From positions 1 to 37,780 of the forward strand of contig CANQYB010000010.1 of the NCBI GenBank assembly GCA_947627975.1: a DNA stretch of 37,780 bases, given 5' to 3'. Positions 22,488 to 36,400 of the stretch are shown one piece after another; position 1 is the stretch's first letter, and each line of letters opens with the position of its first letter. The notes under the pieces were generated by a model. The model was given only the letters and a program-made list of their open reading frames with translations, did not search any database and was not told the origin of the DNA. Origin of the DNA: an uncultured Bacilli bacterium (GTDB taxonomy: Bacteria > Bacillota_I > Bacilli_A > RF39 > UBA660). A program made the position numbers and the translations under genes.

Positions 22488-22650
22488 AAAAAGCCTAAAG
22501 ATATTACGTGTGATAAAATCCCGCTTTTTAACAGGTGGGCATCACATGAAATGCTTTAGGATTCCAAAATATATTTGGCATTCAACACCACATCCCAATT
22601 AGATTCCCGATATATCACTTAGTCGGTTTTATTTTGTAATATCTTTAGAC
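22488..22650 (-). ncRNA. ssrS: 6S RNA (SsrS/BsrA-type)
   Basis: Terminal stem TCTAAAGATATTAC/GTAATATCTTTAG, CCCACCTGTTAAAAAGCGGG hairpin, rod-like organisation; lies beside tcdA and close to rarA, as B. subtilis bsrA lies between yrvM and yrvN. Confidence 0.85.
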
Positions 22651-22656
22651 AATTAT

Positions 22657-25755: not shown

Positions 25756-27516
25756 TTAATTTTCATTTGGTATCCATCTATTTCTTACATCACAATTGGA
25801 TGAATAAGGCATAGGATTTGGAAGTTCCATTCGAATAATCATGGGAATTTTAAAAGCTGAACCAAATGCTACACAAGTTCCTGGTTGAAGAGATTTCTGC
25901 TTTTCAATTACATCATCTGATATATTAGGAAGCATTTTTCTTATGTATTCAAGATCAAGAGGATGAGTCATTTTAAATATAAAGAAATTAGAAATTTGAG
26001 ATATAACTGTATCCGAAAGCTCTACGGGTCTTTGAGAAATAATATTAAGTAATACCCCGTATTTTCTTCCTTCTTTAGCAATTCTATCAAATATATTATA
26101 ACCTAGTAAAAATACATCATTATCTTTTTGGACATATCTATGTGCTTCTTCTAAAAAGATATGAAATGGAATTGAAGCTCTTTTTTTACTATGTTTGGAA
26201 AATTCAAATATAAATCTTGATAAAATTTTAACAATTACTTTTGCATATATATCATCAACATCTTCAAGATTAATATTAATTATTTGAGATTTGTTACCAT
26301 TTTTAACTACTAATGATGATATATAATTTTCAATAGTAGTATAATTTTCATATTCAAAATAAGTTCCAATGTGACTATTTATTATAGAATGCAATCTAAC
26401 TTTTAATATAATGGCTTCATTATACATTTTACTATTATCTTGAAAACCTTCTGATATTAGTGTAAATTCTAGTGCTTTTTCAAAATCTTTTAAAGTATAA
26501 AATGCTTTATCCGGTTCTTTAGTTGATTCTAATTCGTCATTTAAATGTGATAAAACATAGTCATTAATTAATACACTTTCTGAAAAATTACCATTGGAAT
26601 CTATTTCAAAACATTCAGAAAACTTTCTAGTATATCCAAGACCTTGAATTTCTGTATTAAAATTATATTCATCAGTATGACAAGCTTCAATTATACTAAA
26701 TATTTCATTTTTTTTAGAGGCTGTTGTTCTATTTGAAAATAATACTGATAAAATTGCTTTAGATATTAAGTGATTTTTATAATTTTTAGCATTTTCATCA
26801 TTTTGAGCAAAAATTTTAGATAATTTAATTGTTCTTTCAATAATTGGAATTTGGGAGTGATCGCTAAGTTGTAAAAGTAATGCCCAATCATCTAAATTTA
26901 AAAGGTAAATTGGTATTTTAAGACTTTCATCATCTTGATCTACTGGATTTGTAGTTATAAATTTATAATTATAGTATTTATTCATTTCATTAATTTTAGA
27001 AAATGCAGTTTTATATTCTCCATATGCATCAAAAATAAATAAATTAGCATTATATGATAGCATATTTTTATTTAAAAAAATATTTTGGACTAAACGAGCT
27101 ACACCACAACTTTTACCTGATCCAGAATTACCAAATATTGCTAAGTGATTTGAAAAACAATTATTAATGTTAAAATATATGGGACAATTATAAATCGGAG
27201 AATTTCCTGCTAATAAATTATCATTATTATTTGTACCAAATATTTGCATTTGTTCTTGATTATTTATTAATCTTAATGTTGATGAAGGTAAAGGTTTTCT
27301 TAATATTCCACTAACATATTTATCTTCTAAAAATTCCCCTAAAAAACGAATTTTTATACCTGATTCATCTATTTCTGTTACTTCGCCTAATATTCTTTGA
27401 TTGGGCGCTTCAAAAATAACATGAATATTCATGAGGTCTTCACTATTTATAATATTATCGTTATTTTTCTCAACTATTGCTTCATTATTTTTTATCCACT
27501 TTATTTTTCCAAACAT
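25756..27516 (-). CDS. HerA-like / DUF87 hexameric ATPase
   Basis: LAIFGNSGSGKSCGVARLVQNIF Walker A, FHIFLEEAHRYVQ Walker B, ISQRPVELSDTVISQISNFFIFKMTHPLDLEYIRKMLP. Confidence 0.85.
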   Translation of the reverse strand: MFGKIKWIKNNEAIVEKNNDNIINSEDLMNIHVIFEAPNQRILGEVTEIDESGIKIRFLGEFLEDKYVSGILRKPLPSSTLRLINNQEQMQIFGTNNNDNLLAGNSPIYNCPIYFNINNCFSNHLAIFGNSGSGKSCGVARLVQNIFLNKNMLSYNANLFIFDAYGEYKTAFSKINEMNKYYNYKFITTNPVDQDDESLKIPIYLLNLDDWALLLQLSDHSQIPIIERTIKLSKIFAQNDENAKNYKNHLISKAILSVLFSNRTTASKKNEIFSIIEACHTDEYNFNTEIQGLGYTRKFSECFEIDSNGNFSESVLINDYVLSHLNDELESTKEPDKAFYTLKDFEKALEFTLISEGFQDNSKMYNEAIILKVRLHSIINSHIGTYFEYENYTTIENYISSLVVKNGNKSQIININLEDVDDIYAKVIVKILSRFIFEFSKHSKKRASIPFHIFLEEAHRYVQKDNDVFLLGYNIFDRIAKEGRKYGVLLNIISQRPVELSDTVISQISNFFIFKMTHPLDLEYIRKMLPNISDDVIEKQKSLQPGTCVAFGSAFKIPMIIRMELPNPMPYSSNCDVRNRWIPNEN

Positions 27517-29971: not shown

Positions 29972-31426
29972 TTATTTTTCTAAATATTTAGAAATTAACT
30001 TTTTAGTTATAACGGGGTTTGCTTTCCCTCTTGTTTCTCTCATTACTTGACCAACAAAATAATCAAATAAATTAGTTTTGCCATTTTTATACTCTTCTAT
30101 TTGGGCTTGATTATTTTCCATAACTTTATCTACAATATCACTTATTTCCTTTTCATCCGTTATTTGAGTCATATCTGATGATTCTAATAATTCTTTTGGA
30201 TCTTTTTCTTCTTCTATTGCTTTAAAAAATAGTTCTTTGGCTTGCTTAGAAGATATTTTTTTAGACTCTAAGGCTTTTAGGATAGTGCTTAACATTTTCG
30301 CTTTTAGATAAAAATCGTTAATAGATATATCATGTTTATTAATATAACCTAAAACTTGGACAGTTACCCAGTTTGCAGCAACTTTAACATCAATATTATT
30401 ACTTACAAGTTCTTCAAAATAATCAGATACATTTTTTTCCTTAACTAAGACAGTTGCATCATATTCTGATAAATTATATTTTTCAATATATTTTTTCTTT
30501 CTGTCTAAAGCCATTTCAGGAATTGATTTTCTAATTTCTTCTAGCCAACTTTTAGAAATTTTAATTTTGGGAATATTTGGCTCAACAAAATATTTATAAT
30601 CTATAGCATCTACTTTACTACGCATATAAATTGTTGTTCCACTTTCTTCATCCCAACGACGAGTTTGTTGTTCCATTTCATCATATTTACCATTTTCTTT
30701 TAATTCAGTTTGTCTTTTAATTTCGTAATTTATAGCATCTCTTACTCCACCAAAAGAGTTAACATTTTTAATTTCAATCTTCGTTCCCCAATTTTTCGGA
30801 TCTTCTTCATCAAGATTTTCATCCATAATTGAAACATTAACATCACATCTTATTTGGCCTTTTTTACTATCTGCTTCACTAATGCCCGCATACTGATATA
30901 CACTTCGCATATGTTCAAGAAATGAAACGGCTTCATCAGCACTATGTAAATCTGGTTCAGTAACAAGCTCTAAAAGGGGAACACCAGCTCTGTTATAATC
31001 TATATTACTACTGGAAAAATAATGATCTAAGGAAGCAGCATCTTCTTCTAAATGTAAATTATTTACTCGGACACTTTTAATTTCATTATCACATTCAAAA
31101 TCTACTTTACCATAAATTCCAACAGGAATTGGTTTTGTTTCTTGAGTAAGTTGAAAACCTTTTGGAAGATCTGGATAATAATAATTTTTTCTTTCAAAAT
31201 ACATATATTCTGGCTGTTTACAATTTAAAATCATACTAGCCATTAAAGCCATTCTAACGGCTTCTTTATTGACTACAGGTAAAGTTCCTGGAAACGCCAT
31301 ATCAACTGGTCTTACATTAGTATTAGGAATGTCACTATAAGAGTTTCTTGCACTTGAAAATACTTTAGTATTTGTTTCTGATACTTCACAGTGCATTTCC
31401 AAACCAATTTTAGCAATATATCCCAT
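29972..31426 (-). CDS. gatB: Asp/Glu-tRNA(Asn/Gln) amidotransferase subunit B
   Basis: IGLEMHCEVSETNTKVFSSARNSY, FERKNYYYPDLPKGFQLTQ, NRAGVPLLELVTEPD. Confidence 0.98.
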   Translation of the reverse strand: MGYIAKIGLEMHCEVSETNTKVFSSARNSYSDIPNTNVRPVDMAFPGTLPVVNKEAVRMALMASMILNCKQPEYMYFERKNYYYPDLPKGFQLTQETKPIPVGIYGKVDFECDNEIKSVRVNNLHLEEDAASLDHYFSSSNIDYNRAGVPLLELVTEPDLHSADEAVSFLEHMRSVYQYAGISEADSKKGQIRCDVNVSIMDENLDEEDPKNWGTKIEIKNVNSFGGVRDAINYEIKRQTELKENGKYDEMEQQTRRWDEESGTTIYMRSKVDAIDYKYFVEPNIPKIKISKSWLEEIRKSIPEMALDRKKKYIEKYNLSEYDATVLVKEKNVSDYFEELVSNNIDVKVAANWVTVQVLGYINKHDISINDFYLKAKMLSTILKALESKKISSKQAKELFFKAIEEEKDPKELLESSDMTQITDEKEISDIVDKVMENNQAQIEEYKNGKTNLFDYFVGQVMRETRGKANPVITKKLISKYLEK

Positions 31427-32883
31427 TATTTTACCTCCTTTGCAATTTGCCCTTTATAATTCATCGTACTTTCTAAAGCATAAGCGATATTTAATACATT
31501 GGCATCATCATAACAATTACCAGTTATGTTAATTCCTACTGGTAAATTATTTACAAAACCATTAGGAATAGTAATAGATGGGAAACCACCAAAGTTTCCA
31601 ATTTGAAGATGCTCTTCTAAAATTTGAGTTTTTTCATCCAAGATATCTACTTCTCCATCTAATTTTTTAGCTGGTCCAGATGAAACTGGAAGAATAACAC
31701 CATCATATTCTTTAAATAATTCTTTCCATCTATCAACAAGTAATCTTCTTACTCTTTGAGCATTTCTAAAATATCTTTCTTGATTTTCTTTTTGTAAAAC
31801 ATAGGATCCAATTACAAATCTTCTTTTAATTAGTGGAGAAAATCCTTTAGTACGATGATCTTTCATCATATCAATATAATTATCACCCTTACCTCTTGGA
31901 CCAAAAATAATTCCAGTTAAGTTACTCATATTAGAAGTTGCCTCAGCACAAGAAATTATAACATATACAGATGCAAGGGCATTTAAAATTTTTTCATCAA
32001 CAGATACTTCTTCAACTTCAATTCCAATTTTTTTTAATTTATCTAAAGTTCTATAAAAATTATCTAAATGTTCTTTTAATTCCAAAGAAGCGTTTTTATA
32101 CCTATTAATATCGACTATTTCCTTAACATAGCATAATTTTTTACTTTTTACATTACCATCAATTGATTTATATAAATTAATATTGCTAGAGTCAAAAGAT
32201 GTCATATCATTTTTATCTATTCCCTTCATATTATCAACGACAATTGCTGCATCTTTAACACTTCTTGTCAAAACACCACAATGATCTAAACTTGATGCAA
32301 AAGGAAATAATCCATAACGAGATATCATTCCATATGTTGGTTTATAACCGACAATACCACAATATGCTGCTGGTTTTCGAATTGAATCACCAGTATCTGA
32401 ACCTAAAGCATAAGGATAAACTCCTGCTGCAACAGCTGCAGCTGAACCTGATGATGAACCAGCACACATACGAGTTGTATCCCAAGGATTTTTAATTATT
32501 CCTGTATGAGCAGTTGTTCCTGTACCTCCCATACCAAATTCATCCATAGCTGTTTTGTTTACTTTTATAGCACCGGCTTTATTTAAATTTTCAATAGCAG
32601 TAGCATTAAAGAAAGGAACATAATCTTTTAAAGTATTTGATGAACCCGTAGATAAAATACCTTTAGTTGAATAGTTGTCTTTAACACCATATGGAATTCC
32701 TGAAAGTAAATTGTCAGTAACTTCTCCACCTTTTTGTTCATCTAAAATAGTAACAAAGGCATTACATTTTTCTTGAACTTCATGAGATAAAGATAATGAT
32801 TCTTTAACTAAGTCATCACTAGTTATTTCTTTATTTATTAATAATTCATGTAATTCTTCAATAGATTTATTCATATATTTCAT
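31426..32883 (-). CDS. gatA: Asp/Glu-tRNA(Asn/Gln) amidotransferase subunit A
   Basis: GIPYGVKDN, MDEFGMGGTGTTAHTGIIKNPWDTTRMCAGSSSGSAAAVAAG amidase signature; ATG 32883 after SD AGGTG. Confidence 0.98.
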   Translation of the reverse strand: MKYMNKSIEELHELLINKEITSDDLVKESLSLSHEVQEKCNAFVTILDEQKGGEVTDNLLSGIPYGVKDNYSTKGILSTGSSNTLKDYVPFFNATAIENLNKAGAIKVNKTAMDEFGMGGTGTTAHTGIIKNPWDTTRMCAGSSSGSAAAVAAGVYPYALGSDTGDSIRKPAAYCGIVGYKPTYGMISRYGLFPFASSLDHCGVLTRSVKDAAIVVDNMKGIDKNDMTSFDSSNINLYKSIDGNVKSKKLCYVKEIVDINRYKNASLELKEHLDNFYRTLDKLKKIGIEVEEVSVDEKILNALASVYVIISCAEATSNMSNLTGIIFGPRGKGDNYIDMMKDHRTKGFSPLIKRRFVIGSYVLQKENQERYFRNAQRVRRLLVDRWKELFKEYDGVILPVSSGPAKKLDGEVDILDEKTQILEEHLQIGNFGGFPSITIPNGFVNNLPVGINITGNCYDDANVLNIAYALESTMNYKGQIAKEVK

Positions 32884-32892
32884 ATTTTTCAC

Positions 32893-33189
32893 CTACCCAA
32901 CTATCTTTGGTACCTGAATTTCATTACCATCAGTTTCATCAGCATTTTTAAGTAAATCATCAACTGGAATTGATTCTTCCACAACATCTTCTCTAAATTC
33001 ACATTCGAAGTTATCAAGCGTATGAGTCATTGGTTCTACTTTTTCTATTTCAGGAATTTTATTAACTAAATCAATATTTTTATCGATAATTTCAAATTCA
33101 TCTAAAACCATTTTGTTTTCTTCTTCAGTAAGACCTATTAAAAGTTTATCAGCATAATCGTCTACCATTTCTTTAGTAAATTTACTCAT
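32893..33189 (-). CDS. gatC: Asp/Glu-tRNA(Asn/Gln) amidotransferase subunit C
   Basis: 98 aa, between aspS and gatA; VEPMTHTLDNFECEFREDVVEESIPVDDLLKNA typical GatC C-terminus. Confidence 0.93.
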   Translation of the reverse strand: MSKFTKEMVDDYADKLLIGLTEEENKMVLDEFEIIDKNIDLVNKIPEIEKVEPMTHTLDNFECEFREDVVEESIPVDDLLKNADETDGNEIQVPKIVG

Positions 33190-34936
33190 TTTTTACCTCC
33201 ACTTTTAATCCAAGTTCATTAAGTTGTTCCTTACTTACTATACTTGGAGCTTCACTCATTAAATCACTAGCCGTTTGAGTTTTTGGAAATGCAATAACAT
33301 CTTTAATATTATCAGTGCCAGTAAGTAACATGGTAAATCTTTCAAGTCCTATTGCAAGTCCAGCATGAGGAGGAGCTCCATATTTAAATGCTTCAGTAAA
33401 GAATCCAAATTTTTCTTTAATTTGTTCTTTAGTTAAACCAAGTGCATCAAATACAATATTTTGCATTTTAGGATCATGTATACGTACGGATCCCCCACCA
33501 AGTTCATAGCCGTTTAACACAATATCATAAGATAAACTTAAACACTTTTCTTTATTGCTTAAATCTTCAATGCTTGATGGCATAGTAAATGGATGATGCA
33601 TTGCTTTATATCTTTTATCAGTTTCAGAATATTCAAACATAGGGAAATCTGTAACCCATAAAAAATTAAGTTTATCTTTATCTATTAATTTAAGTTCATT
33701 TCCTATTTTCAAACGCAATGCTCCTAAAGAAGCATAAACAATTTTGGGCTTTGCAACAACTATTAAAATAAGATCATTATTTTCAATATTAAATTTATCC
33801 TTGATGGCCATTAATTTTTCATCTTCTAAATTTTTAGCAATAACACCATTAAATTGATCATTATCATATTTTAACCAAGCCATTCCTTTAGCACCATAAA
33901 TTTTGACAAATTCAATCATGTGTTCAATGTCACTTCGAGAATATTTATCACCATTATTTTTTACAATTAAACATTTGGCAATTCCACCTTCTTTTATACT
34001 TTCTGAAAAAACGCGCATTGTGGAATCTTTTAAAATATCGGTAATATCATTTAAATAGAGTTCAAATCTTGTATCTGGCTTATCTGAACCATATTTATCC
34101 ATTGCTTCATGCCAAGTAAGTCGTGGAAATTTATCAAGTTCAATATTTTTAACTTTTTTAACTACATATTTTAACATTTCTTCGGTTAAATTCATTACAT
34201 CTTCATCATTTGCAAAACTTAATTCCATATCAATTTGCGTAAATTCTGGTTGTCGATCAGCACGTAAATCTTCATCTCTAAAACATTTAGCTATTTGATA
34301 ATATTTTTCAAATCCTGAAACCATTAAAAGTTGTTTAAATATTTGTGGACTTTGAGGAAGGGCATAAAATGCTCCTTGATTAATTCTAGATGGTACAATA
34401 TAATCTCTTGCTCCTTCTGGTGTTGATTTACATAAAATTGGTGTTTCAATTTCTAAAAAGTCCTTTTTATTTAGAAATTCGCGAACTGAAGAAGCTATTT
34501 TATGACGAGTTATTATTGTATTTTGTAGTTTACTCTTTCTAAGTTCTAAATATCTATATTTTAATCCAACAGATTCATTTACTTCATTATCTTCATAAAT
34601 ATTAAAAGGAACAGGTTCTGCTTCTGATAAAATATTTAGATTTTCTACCATTAATTCTACTTCACCAGTAGGAATTTTAGGATTTATCATTTCATCATCT
34701 CTTTTTTGTAAAACGCCAGTAACTTCAATACAATATTCATTACGTAAATTTTCTGCTTTTAAAAAATTATCTTTTAAATATTCTCTATTAAATACAATTT
34801 GTAAAAAACCACTTCTATCACGTAAATCAATGAATATTACACCACCCATATCTCGTCTTTTATTAACCCATCCATGCACAGTTATTTTATTTCCAACATC
34901 TTTTAATCTAAAATCACCATTATTATATTTTTTCAT
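33182..34936 (-). CDS. aspS: Aspartyl-tRNA synthetase
   Basis: VHGWVNKRRDMGGVIFIDLRDRSGFLQIV, SPQIFKQLLMVSGFEKYYQIAKCFRDEDLRADRQPEFTQIDME, GLAIGLERFTMLLTG. Confidence 0.98.
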   Translation of the reverse strand: MKKYNNGDFRLKDVGNKITVHGWVNKRRDMGGVIFIDLRDRSGFLQIVFNREYLKDNFLKAENLRNEYCIEVTGVLQKRDDEMINPKIPTGEVELMVENLNILSEAEPVPFNIYEDNEVNESVGLKYRYLELRKSKLQNTIITRHKIASSVREFLNKKDFLEIETPILCKSTPEGARDYIVPSRINQGAFYALPQSPQIFKQLLMVSGFEKYYQIAKCFRDEDLRADRQPEFTQIDMELSFANDEDVMNLTEEMLKYVVKKVKNIELDKFPRLTWHEAMDKYGSDKPDTRFELYLNDITDILKDSTMRVFSESIKEGGIAKCLIVKNNGDKYSRSDIEHMIEFVKIYGAKGMAWLKYDNDQFNGVIAKNLEDEKLMAIKDKFNIENNDLILIVVAKPKIVYASLGALRLKIGNELKLIDKDKLNFLWVTDFPMFEYSETDKRYKAMHHPFTMPSSIEDLSNKEKCLSLSYDIVLNGYELGGGSVRIHDPKMQNIVFDALGLTKEQIKEKFGFFTEAFKYGAPPHAGLAIGLERFTMLLTGTDNIKDVIAFPKTQTASDLMSEAPSIVSKEQLNELGLKVEVKNE

Positions 34937-34949
34937 ATTAATTTCCTTT

Positions 34950-36215
34950 CTAAATATGCATATCTAAATATTCAACTAAATCTAATTCTTTGATTTTTTC
35001 TTCTTCTTTTGTTGTATTATCTTTTATGGTTATTAAACTCTTTTTAAAATCTTCAGAATTTAAAATAATTAAATATTTTGCTTTATATCTATCTGCTTCT
35101 TTAAATTGAGCTTTTAAATTTTTATTTAAAGAATTTATTTCTGAAATATACCCATTTAATCGAAGTAATTGATTTAAATAAATAGCTTTTTCTTTTTCTG
35201 TTTCATTTACATACATAATATATGTATCAATTTCTTTTTTTACAGGAATATTTATTTCTTCTAATTTTAAAATTGATATTAATCTATCAACTCCTAATGC
35301 AAAACCTACGGCAGGAGTATCAGGGCCATTTAAAGAACTAACTAGATTATTATATCTCCCTCCTGCACCGATTACTTTAGATGCACCTAATTCTTTTGAA
35401 TCAACTTCAATTTCAAAGACTGTATCAGTGTAATAATCAAGCCCTCTTACTAAATTTTCATCAATTTTATAATTTATTTCTAGTAAATCCAAATATTCTA
35501 ATACTTTTTCTAAATGTTTTTTACTATCATTACTTAAATATTCAGAAATTTTTGGAGCATTTTTTAAAATATCACTATCTTTGTCTACTTTACAATCAAG
35601 TATTCTTAAAGGATTTTTTTCATATCTTTCGTTACAATCACTACACAAATTTTTTAAATGAGGTTTTATATATTCTTTTAACGCCTTTTTATAATTTTCT
35701 CTAGATTGATTATCACCAAGAGAATTAATTTTAACAATTGTATTATAAATTCCTAATGAATTATATATATTAATAGGCAGAGAAATAATTTCAGCATCAA
35801 TTAACGGATCATTTGAACCAAATATTTCTACTCCTAATTGAGTAAATTCTCGAAGTCTCCCATTTTGTGGACGTTCATAACGATACATTGTACCATTATA
35901 ATATAATTTTACTGGTTGAATTATATCAGCATACATTTTATTTTCAATAAAACTTCTTACAACTCCTGCAGTACCCTCAGGACGCAAAGTAATATTTCTA
36001 TCTCCTCTATCTTTAAAATCATATGTTTCTTTACGAACAATATCTGAAGAATCACCTACACCTCTATGAAATAATTCACTAGCTTCAAATATGGGTGTTC
36101 TAATAAATTTATAATTATATTTTTCACAATAAGCATCAAATACATCGGAAATATATTTATAATATACAGAATCATTTTTAATTAAATCAACAGTACCTTT
36201 TGGTTTACTTATCAT
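34950..36215 (-). CDS. hisS: Histidyl-tRNA synthetase
   Basis: KGTVDLIKNDSVYYKYI, LRPEGTAGVVRSFIEN, YNGTMYRYERPQNGRLREFTQLGVE, GLDYYTDTVFE, GAGGRYNNLV; ATG 36215 with SD GGAGG preferred over listed 36272. Confidence 0.98.
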   Translation of the reverse strand: MISKPKGTVDLIKNDSVYYKYISDVFDAYCEKYNYKFIRTPIFEASELFHRGVGDSSDIVRKETYDFKDRGDRNITLRPEGTAGVVRSFIENKMYADIIQPVKLYYNGTMYRYERPQNGRLREFTQLGVEIFGSNDPLIDAEIISLPINIYNSLGIYNTIVKINSLGDNQSRENYKKALKEYIKPHLKNLCSDCNERYEKNPLRILDCKVDKDSDILKNAPKISEYLSNDSKKHLEKVLEYLDLLEINYKIDENLVRGLDYYTDTVFEIEVDSKELGASKVIGAGGRYNNLVSSLNGPDTPAVGFALGVDRLISILKLEEINIPVKKEIDTYIMYVNETEKEKAIYLNQLLRLNGYISEINSLNKNLKAQFKEADRYKAKYLIILNSEDFKKSLITIKDNTTKEEEKIKELDLVEYLDMHI

Positions 36216-36227
36216 AATTATCCTCCT

Positions 36228-36364
36228 TAAAAATAAAAAAACCAAAAATATGTAGGGGTGAAAGAATTTCACGGTGCCACCCTACTTTTTGGCTTAATTT
36301 TACTTTATCACATTTCTGCGTTCTACTTTTTATATAAGGGCGTCACTCCTTAAGTAGAAATTAC
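36228..36364 (-). promoter_or_regulatory. T-box leader (transcription attenuation) upstream of hisS-aspS-gatCAB
   Basis: Minus strand carries AGGGTGGCACCGTG T-box motif (36270-36283), terminator GTAGGG...TGAAATTCTTTCACCCCTAC...TTTTTGG + T-run, short Stem I ATTTCT...AGAAAT. Confidence 0.88.
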
Positions 36365-36370
36365 AATTTT

Positions 36371-36400
36371 ATTTTAACCTAAAATAGATAATTTAGTCAA
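36371..36400 (-). promoter_or_regulatory. Promoter of the T-box/hisS operon
   Basis: Minus strand TTGACT (36400-36395), 18-bp spacer, TAAAAT (36376-36371). Confidence 0.65.

Follow-up and report, generated by a model that had tools for sequence, protein, structure and literature searches.

A predicted aspartate-specific T-box leader with an ultrashort Stem I precedes hisS-aspS-gatCAB in an uncultured Bacilli bacterium

Genomic context and identification of the leader

The window analysed here comprises the 37,780 nucleotides (nt) of contig CANQYB010000010.1 (positions 1–37,780; assembly GCA_947627975.1, genome G000) from an uncultured Bacilli bacterium. On its minus strand, positions 36235–36400 comprise a very short T-box leader, preceded by a promoter-like site and followed by a predicted terminator ending in seven uridines (U7); a hisS-aspS-gatCAB operon lies downstream. 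Sequence comparison and computation, carried out on incomplete metagenome assemblies, identify the leader as a T-box with an ultrashort Stem I that lacks both the elbow-binding arm and Stem II and is linked to a putative transcription terminator. Its predicted specifier is an aspartate codon, GAC, exposed in the apical loop. All coordinates refer to the window, and all features belong to its minus strand.

The operon begins with hisS (34950–36215; TIGR00442) and continues with a bacterial-type aspS (33182–34936; PRK00476/TIGR00459), gatC (32893–33189; TIGR00135), gatA (31426–32892; TIGR00132, 444 bits, slightly below its cut-off of 481) and gatB (29972–31426; PRK05477/TIGR00133). A preliminary description, made from the sequence alone, had proposed a compact T-box with a much-shortened Stem I in front of an operon starting with hisS and containing gatCAB, and the fold, the RF00230 match and the gene profiles bear this out. 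The promoter-like site that it reported (36371–36400) was recovered by a consensus scan with 10 of 12 matches, comprising a −35 element TTGACT (36400–36395), an 18-nt spacer and a −10 element TAAAAT (36376–36371). Since shuffled sequences yield as many sites of this quality as the window itself, support for the promoter comes from its conservation in two related genomes, G001 and G121. A transcription start farther upstream, giving a normal Stem I, is unlikely, as the promoter-like stretch is common to the three genomes, while G000 and G001 diverge upstream of it.

The leader, located between the promoter-like site and the hisS operon, measures ~130 nt, and its fold is more stable than those of shuffled sequences (z −3.98). 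The covariance match to RF00230 (36372–36251) scores 35.6 bits (E 1.7e-6), the weakest of ten such T-box matches in the 1.06-Mb genome. Because this lies far below the RF00230 gathering score of 93, annotation relying on the Rfam gathering cut-off misses the leader. Both the T-box sequence AGGGUGGCACCGUG (36283–36270) and the hairpin ending in U7 (36241–36235) occur as previously described. The ribosome-binding site AAGGAGGA (36228–36221) is situated 3' of the U-tract and outside the hairpin, so sequestration of this site is not predicted.

Secondary structure of Stem I

The minimum free energy (MFE) fold predicts Stem I (36321–36359) as a single hairpin of 39 nt, with 12 base pairs (bp) and an 8-nt apical loop; the distal elbow-binding part is absent. 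A lower helix, formed by UUCUACUU (36359–36352) and AAGUAGAA (36328–36321), is separated by the 3' internal loop AUAUAAA (36335–36329) from an inner helix of AAGG (36351–36348) and CCUU (36339–36336), which is capped by the apical loop AGUGACGC (36340–36347), where the MFE fold places two weak pairs. A Stem III hairpin, CGCA-GAAA-UGUG (36309–36320), starts immediately after Stem I (36321/36320), leaving no Stem II and hence neither an S-turn nor a IIA/B pseudoknot; a homologous CGC..GCG hairpin is found in both long and short relatives.

Pair counts over 22 distinct short leaders (alignment A6) support this arrangement. In the lower helix, pairing reaches 92% and each of the eight pairs shows two-sided changes; the covariation score of the whole structure was matched in none of 500 shuffles. 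The preliminary description had instead paired ATTTCT with AGAAAT, so that the 3' side loop AGAACGC would offer overlapping GAA (Glu) and AAC (Asn) codons to two transfer RNAs (tRNAs). The four pairs unique to that model are 69.1% paired over the 22 homologues against a shuffle mean of 69.8%, whereas the UUCU/AGAA register, which uses the same four 5' bases, is 100% paired with two-sided changes at four of four pairs in A6, an alignment that was fitted to the structure under test and thereby favours this register. Direct comparison of the G000, G121 and genus g8 sequences provides support independent of that fit; in the lower helix of G121, a C-G pair is replaced by U-A. A MAFFT alignment of 15 short leaders (A4) placed Stem I out of register and was excluded from the counts.

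The two-codon model could draw on the presence of GAAC in the window and in G001, on the gatCAB genes of the operon, on the GCCA end of tRNA-Asn and on the occurrence of GAAC at the specifier place in some long hisS T-boxes of the family. However, the helix it requires pairs at chance level, and the GAAC expected to be conserved among homologous leaders is lost in relatives (AAAACGC in G121, GAAACGC in g8). Moreover, AGAACGC consists of the end of the Stem I helix followed by the start of Stem III (ACGC), which leaves no GAAC specifier loop, and tRNA-Glu(CUC) ends in ACCA, so that the Glu half of the proposal mismatches the UGGC bulge of the antiterminator. We regard an overlapping Glu/Asn specifier in this leader as extremely improbable.

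Seven long hisS T-boxes of the family (L147, L149, L157, L166, L169, L173 and L209) carry GAAC at the specifier place, with overlapping GAA and AAC readable. Judged by their sequences, these are better candidates for two-codon recognition than the window leader.

Specifier codon and tRNA complementarity

In the long hisS T-boxes of the family, the base helix, asymmetric 3' loop, inner helix and Stem III are as in the window leader, and the homologous position, directly 5' of the 3' strand of the inner helix, is occupied by GAC or AAC. Every short Asp/Asn leader that was read displays an apical loop of the form U-[G/A]AC-R; the leader with AAC is that of G167, which has U-AAC-A upstream of a hisS-asnS operon. 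On the basis of these long and short homologues, the specifier of the window leader is assigned to the apical GAC (36342–36344, read 36344–36342), the distal-loop placement that the preliminary description had listed as one that would refute its own proposal. By the same comparison, the short form is what remains of the long-family Stem I once the part beyond the specifier loop is removed.

The assigned codon matches the amino acid of an operon gene, aspS, the second gene, and the operon would fit sensing of tRNA-Asp through it. GAC also fits the anticodon GUC of tRNA-Asp in relatives. These tRNA-Asp features were taken from relatives because no tRNA-Asp gene was found in the 48-contig assembly of G000, which is probably an assembly gap; in G008, G268, G227, G140 and G293, the tRNA has the anticodon loop CUGUCAC and the end GCCA. 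The UGGC bulge is complementary to the GCCA ends of these tRNAs and of the window genome's tRNA-Asn, but not to those of its tRNA-Glu(CUC) (ACCA) or tRNA-His (CCCA). The pairing of the bulge with GCCA proposed earlier thus holds for Asn and Asp and excludes His, as anticipated, and fails for Glu. A His specifier was likewise rejected, given the CCCA end of tRNA-His and an apical loop devoid of a His codon.

No asnS was detected at E 1e-60 in G000, G001 or G121, from which we infer that Asn-tRNA is probably made from Asp through AspRS and GatCAB, with AspRS presumably charging tRNA-Asn as well.

Antiterminator, terminator and proposed switch

The predicted antiterminator (36252–36285), supported by the RF00230 match and the fold, consists of helix A1, GUAGGG (36285–36280) with CCCUAC (36257–36252), which is 100% paired in the 22 homologues; a 7-nt bulge of the T-box type UGGN-ACC, UGGCACC (36279–36273), whose UGGC (36279–36276) stands opposite the tRNA GCCA; and helix A2, GUGAAA (36272–36267) with UUUCAC (36263–36258). 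The three 5' elements follow one another without interruption. Below the antiterminator, CCAAAAA (36292–36286) pairs with UUUUUGG (36248–36242), followed by U7, to give a predicted terminator (36235–36292) that encloses the antiterminator, the strand before U7 pairing upstream of A1. A consensus terminator scan, whose loop limit is 3–8 nt, did not report this hairpin. The same nesting was predicted in all 17 short Asp/Asn leaders folded, with all or most of the strand preceding the U-tract paired upstream of A1, and in many long relatives, whereas the valS, pheS and ileS T-boxes of the window genome fold with the usual mutually exclusive terminator. In four long relatives (L014, L015, L017 and L019), the T-box sequence itself pairs with the strand before the U-tract.

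We consider it likely that the leader is a minimal Asp-sensing transcriptional T-box, in which tRNA-Asp would be held solely at the apical GAC and the UGGC bulge, everything of Stem I above the specifier having been lost. Sequence comparison shows the hairpin with its apical GAC, the homology of that codon to the specifiers of long relatives, the matched bulge and a terminator-like hairpin; that the leader binds tRNA, responds to its charging and regulates in the direction proposed below is extrapolated from these features. In the proposed mechanism, the anticodon GUC of uncharged tRNA-Asp would pair with GAC in the apical loop of the 12-bp Stem I and its GCCA end with UGGC in the antiterminator bulge. 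With both tRNA ends held, read-through into hisS-aspS-gatCAB would be favoured when charged tRNA-Asp is scarce; otherwise, the hairpin and U7 would stop transcription. Bound tRNA might prevent termination by clamping the linker so that its pairing with UUUUUGG is no longer possible.

Several observations weigh against this interpretation. The nested terminator, as predicted, shows no clear mutual exclusion with the antiterminator. According to a review (PMC7583486), transcriptional T-boxes generally require a long Stem I that binds the tRNA elbow. To these are added the tRNA-Asp gene missing from the G000 assembly and the structure-fitted alignment noted above. The first point opens an alternative, namely that the apical GAC is correctly assigned but the tRNA acts in an unusual way, through strengthening of the hairpin, pausing or steric clamping, with a possible change in the sign or timing of regulation. 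The consistent nesting of the short leaders, set beside the exclusive terminators of the genome's valS, pheS and ileS T-boxes, speaks for such a scheme. Many long relatives are nested too, however, and the conserved T-box bulge suggests ordinary sensing of the tRNA end, so we judge an unusual mode of action rather unlikely.

Distribution and origin of the short leaders

A model built from three short leaders was searched over 386 genomes of the window's family; the order (385 genomes) and the class (395 genomes) were searched with a second model. At the class threshold of E 1e-7, every match fell inside the window's family. Short Asp/Asn leaders, read individually, occur in eight genera (g1, g120, g8, g103, g139, g19, g66 and g154) and precede hisS, aspS or asnS; the named relatives are uncultured Bacilli and similar organisms, many from animal guts. 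Six further candidates were set aside. L157, L184, L213 and L218 had been called short by an automatic classifier, but L157, L213 and L218 are long on reading and L184 has no match to the short model; L093 and L111 are also long on reading.

In a HisRS tree of 47 rows, short hisS leaders occupy three places, at least two of them forced by well-supported branches. The tree therefore indicates that truncation of Stem I, or exchange of leaders, occurred more than once.

This distribution bears on the alternative of a decaying T-box, which would keep its terminator and antiterminator but whose shortened Stem I would have lost the ability to recognise a tRNA. The lowest RF00230 score among the ten matches of the genome and the missing elbow-binding arm and Stem II are what such decay would leave. 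Against it stand the compensatory changes in the helix, the constant U-[G/A]AC-R loop and the intact bulge across eight genera, the three separate places in the HisRS tree and the wide use of the same design for glyS. Decay is thus very unlikely.

The glyS leader of the window genome (L009/L254; G000:C1:32620–32723, minus strand) is also ultrashort. Among the relatives searched, twelve glyS leaders of the family have this layout (the set in question being L009/L254, L255–L258, L260–L262, L264 and L266–L268): a hairpin of a few bp exposes GGA or GGC in its apical loop, and a UGGA bulge is complementary to tRNA-Gly, which ends in UCCA. In the class sample, strong matches to a glyS model were confined to the window's family, with weaker matches outside it. 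Of 30 loci, 24 could be parsed, giving GGA in 21 and GGC in three, with U before the codon in all 24; the search itself demanded the A that follows the codon, and at some loci the longest frame in the stretch read is not glyS.

A hand tally of the Asp/Asn leaders has U before the codon in nine of nine short groups and in three of the 45 long ones (Fisher p ~4e-8), a value that serves only as a guide because the sequences are related; the nine groups were later recounted as eight genera. A broader interpretation is that these leaders form a separate minimal kind of T-box in one order of gut Bacilli, imitating an anticodon arm through a U-codon-purine loop, mostly of 7–9 nt. The loop would adopt an anticodon-loop-like turn and pair loop to loop with the tRNA anticodon, so that neither the elbow contact nor Stem II would be needed, even where the transcriptional decision is fast; alternatively, its U and purine might extend the pairing to A37 and U33 of the tRNA. 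The glycine leaders add less to this idea because L265, the glyS leader of one relative, keeps the long form and also has U before the codon. We treat anticodon-arm mimicry as a tentative possibility, somewhat less probable than not.

Two further features of the window are a 6S RNA match (22488–22654) of 55 bits, where the gathering score is 46.4, and a HerA-like helicase (25756–27516) scoring well below the cut-off of the named anti-phage families.

Comparison with known T-box systems

With canonical transcriptional T-boxes (RF00230), the window leader shares the T-box sequence, antiterminator bulge, Stem III, U-tract terminator and association with an aminoacyl-tRNA synthetase operon; unlike them, it has a Stem I cut just above an apical specifier, neither elbow motif nor Stem II, and a predicted nested terminator. 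Many long Asp/Asn hisS T-boxes of the family share this nesting, and the long form agrees with the window leader in base helix, asymmetric loop, inner helix, specifier register and Stem III, but keeps the upper Stem I and mostly has A before the codon. A two-codon T-box is reportedly present on gatCAB of Clostridium acetobutylicum (Saad 2013); the window leader likewise sits on a transamidation operon but carries a single apical GAC without overlapping codons.

According to PMC7583486, a short Stem I with an apical specifier is mostly a trait of translational T-boxes; the best-studied of these needs both Stem II and the IIA/B pseudoknot for binding (PMC10651847). The actinobacterial translational ileS T-boxes (Sherwood 2015, via PMC7583486; PMC10651847) resemble the window leader in their short Stem I and apical specifier, whereas in the window Stem III comes straight after Stem I and a predicted terminator provides the output. 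Glycine T-boxes are named as naturally without Stem II; glyQS T-boxes share this absence and a transcription terminator with the window leader, but have a long Stem I contacting the tRNA elbow.

As no terminator-linked T-box with an apical specifier and without elbow arm or Stem II was described in the literature searched, we treat the window leader as a T-box of a new form. Occurring naturally, at ~125 nt and linked to a terminator, a T-box with neither a long elbow-binding Stem I nor Stem II would offer a direct test of which contacts are needed for timely sensing of a tRNA and its charging, and the occurrence of Asp, Asn and Gly leaders of the same minimal design raises the question of how large a part of the T-box tRNA sensing requires.
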